Shown here piece after piece: positions 6,929 through 38,054 of a stretch of DNA of 64,000 nucleotides (its first letter is position 1; each line of letters begins with the position of its first letter). This DNA comes from Pyruvatibacter mobilis (GTDB lineage: Bacteria; Pseudomonadota; Alphaproteobacteria; CGMCC-115125). The notes beneath the pieces were generated by a model, which saw nothing but the letters and a program-made list of their open reading frames with translations, was not told the DNA's origin and ran no database searches. Where the stretch lies: assembly GCF_012848855.1 (NCBI RefSeq), contig NZ_CP051630.1:599501-663500 (forward strand). The letters run 5' to 3'. The position numbers and the translations under genes are program-made.

Positions 6929-7038
6929 GGAATCTCTGCAACCAGAGTCACTTTACACGTGCAAGTGGCTTTTACTCAGTAGTCTTTGCAATATCCAACT
7001 TATCGCTTGCCCCGCGGCCTAGCCTTCCCCAGTGCTCC

Positions 7039-9417
<2,379 letters not shown>

Positions 9418-35900: not shown

Positions 35901-36503
35901 TTAAAGGGCGTCGGCGTGCTTGCCGAGGTAATCGGCGACGCCTTCAGCCGTGTCCTTCATGCCCTCGTCGCCCTTCTGCCAGCCGGCGGGGCAGACTTCG
36001 CCCACTTCCTCGTGGAACTGGAGGGCTTCGACCATGCGCACAGTCTCGTCCGCATTGCGGCCGAGCGGCAGGTCGTTGACGAGCTGGTGGCGGACAATGC
36101 CGTCACGGTCGATCACGAAGGTGCCGCGCAGGGCCACTTCGTCCTGGTGCAGGATGCCGTATTCACGGGTGATCTGCTTGGAGACGTCGGCCACCATCGG
36201 GAACTTCACCGGGCCGAGGCCGCCATCCTTCGGCTCCGTGTTGCGCCAGGCATAGTGGGTGAACTGGCTGTCGATGGAGATGCCGACCACCTTGGTGTTG
36301 ATGCCGGCAAGCTTCTCCACGCGGTTGGAGTAGGCGAGGATCTCGCTGGGGCAGACAAAGGTGAAGTCGAGCGGCCAGAAGAAGACCACGCCGTAGGAGC
36401 CCTTTAGGTGCTCCATCAGGTGGAAATCTTCCTTGATGAAGCCATCTTCCATGACGGCAGCGGCAGTGAAATCAGGGGCGGGCTTGCCAACGAGAACGCT
36501 CAT
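35901..36503 (-). CDS. Typical 2-Cys peroxiredoxin (AhpC/Prx1 type)
   Basis: 200 residues. Peroxidatic Cys51 is in PLDFTFVCPSE and resolving Cys171 in GEVCPAGW, the typical 2-Cys layout. It reduces hydrogen peroxide and organic peroxides with electrons from thioredoxin or AhpD/AhpF-like partners; trxB and an AhpD-like gene lie downstream on the same strand. An Irr-like palindrome about 130 bp upstream resembles that of dps. Confidence 0.95.
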   Translation of the reverse strand: MSVLVGKPAPDFTAAAVMEDGFIKEDFHLMEHLKGSYGVVFFWPLDFTFVCPSEILAYSNRVEKLAGINTKVVGISIDSQFTHYAWRNTEPKDGGLGPVKFPMVADVSKQITREYGILHQDEVALRGTFVIDRDGIVRHQLVNDLPLGRNADETVRMVEALQFHEEVGEVCPAGWQKGDEGMKDTAEGVADYLGKHADAL

Positions 36504-36629
36504 AAATGTGGCTCCTTCAAGCGGTCACTAAACAGTCGAATGAGTGGGGAGCCGCCCGGGCCTCATGCCAGAGGGGGAGGAGGTTTTGGCCAGGGCTTTA
36601 AGGATGCTCCGGCTCCCGCAGGACTGCAA

Positions 36630-36646
36630 ATTAGAACTCTTCCAAT
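36630..36646. promoter_or_regulatory. Irr/Fur-like palindrome upstream of the peroxiredoxin
   Basis: ATTAGAACTCTTCCAAT has seven-base arms with one mismatch around CTC and closely matches the dps site TTTAGAATTATTCCAAT. On the minus strand it includes a TCTAAT hexamer that could be the -10 of the gene. Confidence 0.45.
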
Positions 36647-36775
36647 TAAATACAAGGCCGCATCCGGCCGGATTCTGCATGGCTGGCCCGTCATTTTGAC
36701 GCAGGCGCATGAGGTGCGCGGGAATGCGGCGGGCGGCGGGTGATTGCTGCTTGAATGGGCGCGTGACGGGGTGGC

Positions 36776-36990
36776 TGTGGATAAGCCGGAAGCGTGAGTC
36801 TTCTGAATCACTTAGGCGGTGATGCTGCTGAATCGAGTCGGCGGGGGAGCGCGCCTGAGGAGCGTTCGTGAGGTCGTTTGAGCGGTATGCGGACGGTTTT
36901 GCGGCGTCTGACGTTCCGGCCTGTGGATAAACGGAAAAAGACGAGTCCGGAGAATCCCTTGGCACCTGCAGCTGAGGGATTTGGTGAATC
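36776..36990. other. GANTC cluster with two DnaA boxes
   Basis: Seven GANTC (CcrM) sites start at 36796, 36805, 36830, 36835, 36943, 36952 and 36986. Two perfect TGTGGATAA DnaA boxes are at 36776-36784 and 36922-36930. The unit GAGTC-N4-GAATC occurs twice. It lies in the 500-bp non-coding space between the peroxiredoxin and ELM1-family genes; no gene was found there. Confidence 0.7.
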
Positions 36991-37004
36991 GCTCCCAGCT
37001 GCGC

Positions 37005-38054
37005 CTAGCGGCGCTCCGGGGGCAGGGTGAAGCCGCGGGCGGCCATGCGGGTGCGGATCTCAGCGGCCGCGCGCAGGGTCTCGGTGAGGGGTGGATAGGT
37101 CCAGCTGTCGAGCTCGCCAGTGAGTTCGCGGGCGATGCCGCGGGCGCGCAGGGTATCGTGAAAATGCTCGAACTTTTCCGCCCGCGCCCCGGACACGGGC
37201 TCAAGCGGCGCGACGTAGAGCGGGGTGCCGCTGGCGGCTACTTCGGCGGCCATGTTGACGCTGTCCTGGGTCACCACCACGGCGTCGGCCAGGGCATAGA
37301 GACCGAGGATCGGGCTGGGGCCGTCGCCGTCCCATAGCCAGGCGCCGAGGCGGTCTGCATGGGCTTTGATCACTGCCTCGTTCTCCGGCCCGGTGCGGCG
37401 GGAGGCGGTGATGGCGAGGCTGCCGCCGGAGCCCGCGACCATCTTCTCAAGGCAGGCAAACAGGGCGTCCACATCCGCGGTGCGCATCTGGTAGGCCTTG
37501 CTGGGGCCGCCGATGGCGATCGCGATGAGCGGCCGGGGGAGGTCGCTGAAGGCTGCGCGCCAGGTTTCGGCTGCCTCCTTGAGCCGCCAGGGCAGGGCAA
37601 GGTTGGGGGAGCCCGTCAGGGGCAGGATATTGTCGGCCGGGGGCATGGCGTCATGCTCGGGCGGCACCACGAGATCAAACAAGGCGGGGCTCACCCGCGG
37701 GTCCTGGCACTGGACGGTGAAGGTGCGGGGGCCCGCCATGCGCCGCAGCCAGGCCATGACGGGCACCGAGAGACGGCCACAGCCGATGGCGAGCTGGGGC
37801 AGCGGGCCTTCCAGCAGGCGGCGGTTTTCAGGCGACAGCCTGCGGGCGGCAGTGCCCCATAGCGGCCAGGCCGCCTCGGGCAGCCAGCGCCAGGGGGCGC
37901 GGGCATCCAGCCGCACGGGCAGGGGGGTGTAGCCCGCCGCCTCGGCCAGGGCCATGGCCTGGTTCTCCATGCCCCGCGCGCCGCCGGACAGCACCCAGGC
38001 ATCGGGCCGGGAGGCGCTGGGTCGGGCGGCGGATTCCGTCGGGGCTTGGGACAT
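37005..38054 (-). CDS. Mitochondrial fission ELM1 family protein
   Basis: 349 residues. WVLSGGARGMENQAMALAEA opens the protein; LIAIAIGGPSKAYQM, ITASRRTGPENE and DAVVVTQDSVNMAAEVAASGTPLYV are typical of the ELM1/DUF1022 family with a glycosyltransferase-B-like fold. The bacterial role is not established; a nucleotide-sugar or lipid-linked transfer is suggested by fold only. Divergent from lrp, with a perfect palindrome 15 bp before its start. Confidence 0.88.
   Translation of the reverse strand: MSQAPTESAARPSASRPDAWVLSGGARGMENQAMALAEAAGYTPLPVRLDARAPWRWLPEAAWPLWGTAARRLSPENRRLLEGPLPQLAIGCGRLSVPVMAWLRRMAGPRTFTVQCQDPRVSPALFDLVVPPEHDAMPPADNILPLTGSPNLALPWRLKEAAETWRAAFSDLPRPLIAIAIGGPSKAYQMRTADVDALFACLEKMVAGSGGSLAITASRRTGPENEAVIKAHADRLGAWLWDGDGPSPILGLYALADAVVVTQDSVNMAAEVAASGTPLYVAPLEPVSGARAEKFEHFHDTLRARGIARELTGELDSWTYPPLTETLRAAAEIRTRMAARGFTLPPERR

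Follow-up and report, generated by a model that had tools for sequence, protein, structure and literature searches.

The non-coding spacer at positions 36504-37004 of the window (the whole 64-kb stretch of DNA analysed, G000:C1:599501-663500, from a genome consisting of a single contig of 3,333,914 bp) carries what is, as far as its sequence can tell, a real and conserved element and a new variant of the known regulatory regions on which CcrM, GcrA and DnaA act. It is proposed, with moderate confidence, that the spacer holds a conserved cell-cycle control element which is more likely a free-standing chromosomal DnaA-control site than the promoter of a gene, and that through it DnaA is probably linked to the moment at which the replication fork passes. 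GANTC is methylated by CcrM towards the end of the cell cycle, replication forks leave it hemimethylated, and GcrA and DnaA act on promoters carrying such sites; DnaA is the replication starter protein and dnaB is the gene of the replication helicase.

The element is composed of two modules, each being a pair of GANTC sites followed 11 or 12 nucleotides on by a DnaA box, and both modules read toward a peroxiredoxin gene. Two minus-strand genes, encoding an ELM1-like protein and the peroxiredoxin, flank the spacer. The features are listed below, where R1 denotes a sequence profile built from the eight spacer modules (two in each of four genomes), so that the two scores given for it belong to members of its own training set.

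35901-36503, minus strand: peroxiredoxin gene (AhpC/TSA, 1-cysPrx_C), downstream of the element
36625-36660, minus strand: separate conserved block near the peroxiredoxin gene and outside the element, with an Irr/ICE-like dyad at 36631-36645
36773-36814, minus strand: module B, TAAGT-GATTC-AGAA-GACTC-N11-TTATCCACAGCC (R1, G000:C1:636273-636314, 37.4 bits), aligned in four of four species
36776-36784, minus strand: DnaA box TTATCCACA of module B, in three of four species, the fourth (G002) having TTTTCCACA
36796-36809, no strand: GANTC pair of module B with an N4 spacer, the spacer letters different in each of the four species
36830-36839, no strand: two abutting GANTC sites, GAATCGAGTC, one of which aligns with GANTC in three of four species, the window's own included
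36919-36961, minus strand: module A, CAAGG-GATTC-TCCG-GACTC-N12-TTATCCACAGGC (R1, G000:C1:636419-636461, 37.9 bits), aligned in four of four species
36922-36930, minus strand: DnaA box TTATCCACA of module A, in four of four species
36943-36956, no strand: GANTC pair of module A with an N4 spacer, TCCG in four of four species
36986-36990, no strand: GANTC within GCGATTCA, kept in four of four species
37005-38054, minus strand: Mito_fiss_Elm1-family gene, its 3' end about 45 bp from module A

Composition and GANTC density

Seven GANTC sites, at 36796, 36805, 36830, 36835, 36943, 36952 and 36986, fall within 195 bp (36796-36990), exactly the count given by an earlier sequence-only reading of this DNA, and the two copies of GAGTC-N4-GAATC that it pointed out are found at 36796-36809 and 36943-36956. 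The two DnaA boxes that it had placed 146 bp apart in non-coding DNA are confirmed at 36776 and 36922 (TGTGGATAA, which is TTATCCACA on the minus strand). These are the only perfect TTATCCACA boxes in the window, where shuffling predicts 0.15, and they make up two of the 12 in the genome's 3,333,914 bp.

The background of one GANTC per roughly 300 bp assumed in that reading agrees with shuffled sequence (246 sites in 64 kb), but the window itself holds only 62, an approximately 4-fold avoidance that makes the count of seven stronger than first thought. In a sample of 464 kb (21 stretches, the window included, or 14% of the genome) the GANTC rate is 0.88 per kb, with 0.81 per kb within and 1.69 per kb outside predicted ORFs. 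Elsewhere in this sample no equal density occurs, the maximum being four sites per 195 bp; an array upstream of dnaB, which lies outside the sample, has six (6983-7162 of locus L144). The number of such clusters expected per genome under a Poisson model is about 1e-4 at the genome-wide rate, but it rises to 0.13 at 2.6 per kb and to 2 at 4 per kb, and the case is therefore carried by conservation and not by density alone. A looser GANTC-rich stretch, with 10 sites in 0.8 kb including a GANTC-N4-GANTC pair, is seen at G000:C1:2348992-2349797 (L146).

Two other accounts of the cluster were rejected. The 145-, 130- and 82-aa ORFs that cross it match the relatives mostly in short patches, all of which track DNA conservation (the longest match, in L035, spans 138 positions at 28% identity and E 0.002), and a 111-aa plus-strand ORF has matches in all three relatives, mainly where it is antisense to the peroxiredoxin gene. 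A mobile or dispersed repeat was rejected, since no genome has more than two matches with E under 0.001.

Conservation within the genus

Conservation at the locus was judged from four genomes of one genus and order (G000 to G003, G000 being the window's), and the cluster is kept in all four. Neither observation that the earlier reading had named as telling against it was thus made, since the density has no equal in the 14% sample and the cluster is conserved within the genus. The shared consensus is AA-N2-GAYTC-N4-GAYTC, with TTATCCACA standing 12 bases further on in module A and 11 in module B; the exception is in G002, in which one box is degraded to TTTTCCACA. In the three relatives an extra GANTC and a third box, ATCCACAGG, lie beyond the two modules as a partial third module, which is missing in the window's species.

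Five GANTC sites are common to all four genomes, and at three of these the middle base varies between species. For the seven sites present in three or more genomes, 23 of 28 outer-base positions and three of seven middle bases do not vary, against a background of 88 invariant columns in the 213 gap-free columns of the aligned region; the figure of 23 of 28 is to be read with the caveat that the sites were picked as GANTC, which favours invariant outer bases, and that at the five sites shared by all these bases are fixed by definition. Because the outer bases are kept while the middle base and the N4 of module B drift (the N4 of module A does not), the pattern is the one expected if GANTC itself is under selection, although few sites are involved.

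The relation of the element to the peroxiredoxin gene is also informed by the relatives. In three of the four genomes no gene stands between the two, which would fit a distal regulatory region linking oxidative defence with the cell cycle. In G003, however, an insertion of 1.1 kb with TetR-like and SnoaL-like genes on the opposite strand separates the peroxiredoxin gene from the element (L034:4100-5167), and since the element is intact there despite the two inserted genes, it does not require adjacency to the peroxiredoxin gene. A separate conserved block, at about 36625-36660, moreover belongs to that gene, and the dyad of this block, which resembles an Irr/ICE box, reads TTAGAANNNTTCTAA in the three relatives and has one arm changed in the window's species. 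As the composite also has different neighbours elsewhere, the element is probably not the peroxiredoxin promoter, and a distal role in regulating this gene is considered very improbable.

A related array upstream of dnaB

Plain GANTC-N4-GANTC occurs 7, 14, 11 and 9 times in G000, G003, G001 and G002, and a reversed control pattern 12, 21, 15 and 8 times, so there is no enrichment of the plain pair over the control in these four genomes. The oriented form GAYTC-N4-GACTC, in which GACTC as the second half is a definition picked after the sites were seen (GATTC stands there in one of the G002 spacer modules and at other places), is found at three places in G000, all of them in the peroxiredoxin spacer or upstream of dnaB. 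It is confined to these two regions in G001 and G003 as well, and G002 has one more place (C88).

The dnaB region holds a sister of the element, which in the window's genome takes the following form.

G000:C1:1767008-1767063 (L144), from sequence: array upstream of dnaB, GAGTC-N4-GAATC-N9-GAATC-N9-ATCCACAGG

Across the genus the array reads GAGTC-N4-GAATC-N9-GARTC-N9-ATCCACAGS, and its motif reads away from the gene. There are two copies in the three relatives, about 145 bp apart, and one in G000; one of the G002 copies is without its first GANTC. When the four genomes were searched with R1 at E<=10, six matches were obtained beyond its own eight, of which four are the dnaB cluster, one per genome, at E 0.24-2.1; the other two are a lone DnaA box and a place at G002:C474. 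The reverse profile, R2, gave 11 matches beyond its own seven, four of which fall in the spacer and come from three of the four genomes.

Outside the genus, 28 dnaB loci (L187-L214), which are the best-scoring of the outside matches, were compared. ATCCACA occurs 16 times in the 9.8 kb that directly precede dnaB, against 11 times in the remaining 114 kb, and is thus approximately 17-fold denser there, the comparison DNA being mostly coding; at least one copy lies upstream in 13 of the 28 genomes. Because of this concentration, DnaA control of dnaB looks widespread, and the dnaB element of the genus adds a GANTC array to it. A GANTC cluster conserved across the class is absent upstream of dnaB in these 28 loci.

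Recurrence across the class

Searching 385 genomes of the class with R1 resulted in 35 with a match at E<=0.05, four of which are the genus. At this threshold chance alone would yield about 19 matches in 385 genomes, the E-values being rough, so roughly half of the weak class-wide matches may be noise. The best outside matches are five composite places in three genomes of one family (f108); E is 6.7e-7 to 2.8e-6 for three of these places. TTAYCCACA stands 11 bases after the pair at each of the five, one of which has a degraded first half. Two lie between same-direction genes and two between convergent genes, the convergent neighbours being PemK-like and radical SAM genes, about 1.1 kb from rnhB-ccrM, and GNAT and metallo-hydrolase genes. 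At G311:C78 (L269), rnhB-ccrM lies about 1.1 kb downstream of the composite module, and the PemK-like gene stands between them.

Among the 39 outside places in total, five are upstream of ftsB (L277, L281, L283, L285 and L287) and three upstream of ftsZ (L276, L278 and L284), and at L282 the motif precedes the gene of a large coiled-coil protein, which its architecture suggests to be PodJ-like. For the 25 that are left after these nine and the five composite places, the neighbours are other or unclear, or were looked at by tblastn alone; 19 of the 39 have no tblastn match to FtsB, FtsZ, FtsA, Eno, PdhA, DnaB, GcrA, CcrM, PodJ-like, ELM1 or peroxiredoxin. The ftsB places come from five genomes in three families. 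ATCCACA is absent within 300 bp at all five and present at two of the three ftsZ places, and the ftsB places show that the paired half can do without a DnaA box. In two different families (L274 and L275), the paired motif lies upstream of the same 198-aa protein (MDTTYNLNGGYKPTLKRF...), the L274 copy of which has no Pfam or NCBIfam match.

These positions bear on a possible, though not favoured, alternative in which the element is the cell-cycle promoter of an unannotated transcript, either a small RNA or one antisense into the ELM1-like gene, controlled by DnaA together with GcrA and CcrM as the dnaB and ftsB/ftsZ regions would be. The half-motif upstream of ftsB and ftsZ and the related cluster before dnaB speak for it. 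The motif reads away from the gene at all five ftsB places, at two of the three ftsZ places and at dnaB, and by analogy the transcript would enter the ELM1-like gene. Against it, a consensus scan of the spacer finds no sigma-70-like promoter, although alphaproteobacterial promoters can deviate from that consensus, and a tRNA is the sole Rfam match in the window, with none over the cluster. Conservation between the modules is low, and the composite stands between convergent genes at least twice elsewhere.

Another explanation, in which the GANTC pairs are incidental, is considered unlikely. Here a different regulator would bind an oriented site of approximately AAG-N-GAYTC-N4-GAYTC-N3-TTTTCG, which CcrM would methylate by overlap only. 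In a set of 20 of the outside places, 18 have a strict pair; all 18, read on the motif strand, are GAYTC-N4-GAYTC with a pyrimidine in the middle of both half-sites, and 13 are preceded by AAG-N. Within the genus, the AA and the T-rich bases that flank the pair are also kept. The R1 profile behind these places nevertheless favours both the GAYTC orientation and AAG-N, so the orientation seen outside is partly selected. Also against this explanation, the middle base drifts across species, isolated GANTC sites around the pair are conserved too, and five to seven GANTC sites lie within 300 bp of each ftsB place.

Comparison with known systems

The window's genome encodes both CcrM and GcrA. The CcrM gene lies beside an rnhB-like ORF and matches NF050803 at E 1.8e-192 (638.8 bits against a cut-off of 830), with N6_N4_Mtase and RAMA domains; the RAMA domain is present in three of the four genus genomes and was not found in the one that is 81% complete. 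GcrA is recognized by Pfam in all four, the copy of the window's genome scoring 193 bits against an NCBIfam cut-off of 280. Just upstream of this gcrA, two perfect DnaA boxes face each other 44 bp apart (G000:C1:2480427 and 2480471, L037), as expected if DnaA activates gcrA.

The E. coli sites datA, DARS1 and DARS2 are similar in being intergenic clusters of DnaA boxes that are present in few copies and lie outside the origin. The element has two perfect boxes, with a third in the three relatives, and is uncoupled from the peroxiredoxin gene in G003, so it may be a site of this type, although an unseen promoter could account for the same observations. It differs in that its boxes are 114-146 bp apart and are paired with GANTC instead of IHF or Fis sites. 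Alphaproteobacteria are not known to have a datA- or DARS-like site. The crtS site of Vibrio cholerae is likewise a short, methylatable intergenic site, the replication of which is sensed; unlike the element, which has a host with a single contig, crtS acts through RctB on a second chromosome.

The Caulobacter promoters under CcrM, GcrA and DnaA (ctrA P1, dnaA, ftsZ, mipZ and podJ) are alike in combining GANTC and DnaA motifs in non-coding DNA of a host with CcrM and GcrA, and they share with the class-wide motif ftsZ as a target and perhaps podJ. They differ from the element in that its GANTC sites are paired at a nine-base spacing, repeated and in register with a DnaA box, with no clear gene start attached. 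Passages of PMC3973325 describe ctrA, dnaA, ftsZ, mipZ and most probably ccrM as methylation-controlled, and state that a change from full to half methylation of GANTC in cis suffices to shift the activity of the ctrA, dnaA and ftsZ promoters slightly but significantly. Promoters with DnaA and CcrM sites together are listed in a portion of PMC4287350. Passages of PMC7987155 place ftsZ and podJ among the likely targets of GcrA and give an extended GcrA motif, YGAKTCK, for which little support is noted in Brevundimonas; the paired form is not described in those passages. According to a part of PMC5172544, MucR can shield GANTC from CcrM, and hypomethylation as such is doubted as a driver of the cell cycle.

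The commonest form in the class, YGATTC-N4-GACTCR, could be read as two convergent YGAKTC half-sites, whereas the first half is GACTC in six of the eight modules of the genus and so misfits the K of the motif. A literature search that covered few subscription journals found no published GANTC-N4-GANTC motif.

Proposed mechanism

The earlier proposal of a DnaA- and CcrM-linked cell-cycle element is strengthened by the presence of ccrM and gcrA, the conservation in four of four genomes, the relative at dnaB and the half-motif at ftsB and ftsZ, whereas its placement as a promoter on the peroxiredoxin side is disfavoured by the G003 insertion and by that gene's own conserved block. Somewhat tentatively, a free-standing DnaA-control site is preferred over a promoter for an unseen transcript or for the peroxiredoxin gene, because the element is uncoupled from the latter in G003, lies next to the 3' end of the gene before it and is found again between convergent genes in other genomes.

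In such a site, CcrM would methylate the two GANTC sites of a pair, which are nine bases apart, and full versus half methylation of the pair would be sensed by a reader, for which GcrA is the likeliest candidate and another oriented protein an alternative. DnaA would bind the boxes 11 or 12 bases away. Fork passage would then change the occupancy of DnaA or GcrA, and DnaA occupancy would keep pace with the replication of this locus; in front of dnaB and the fts genes, such a change would time transcription. Methylation alone would not call for an oriented pair, and its orientation may mean that a reader other than GcrA is involved.

A broader and rather speculative proposal is that Alphaproteobacteria with CcrM own a chromosomal DnaA-control site, a low-copy combination of paired GANTC and DnaA box at which hemimethylation after the fork switches DnaA binding and resets initiation. 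If true, this would be an analogue of datA/DARS joined to SeqA-like logic, and kin in sequence to the promoter motif of ftsB, ftsZ and dnaB. The candidate is small, conserved and near-unique, with a sister element at dnaB and motif relatives at ftsB and ftsZ, and it bears on the way in which alphaproteobacteria coordinate DnaA with replication at places other than the origin. In addition, the paired-GANTC motif gives a definite sequence, more than a single GANTC, by which division genes may be selected by CcrM and GcrA.

Position relative to the replication origin

The origin is inferred to lie near 2.913 Mb, where hemE is found by Pfam; mnmE-, gidA-, gidB- and parA-like ORFs, recognized by inspection, and parS-like sites follow at 2.923-2.928 Mb. 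The element would then lie about 1.06 Mb away on one arm, with dnaB (1.767 Mb) on the opposite arm at a distance of about 1.15 Mb. The element is thus ruled out as the replication origin itself, given its distance from these genes, and reading of the origin region revealed no GANTC cluster of the element's kind. Within the window the GC skew is positive throughout except at about 4-8 kb. It is above zero in 19 of the 21 sampled stretches of the genome, the window included, which is unusual for a chromosome with two replichores.
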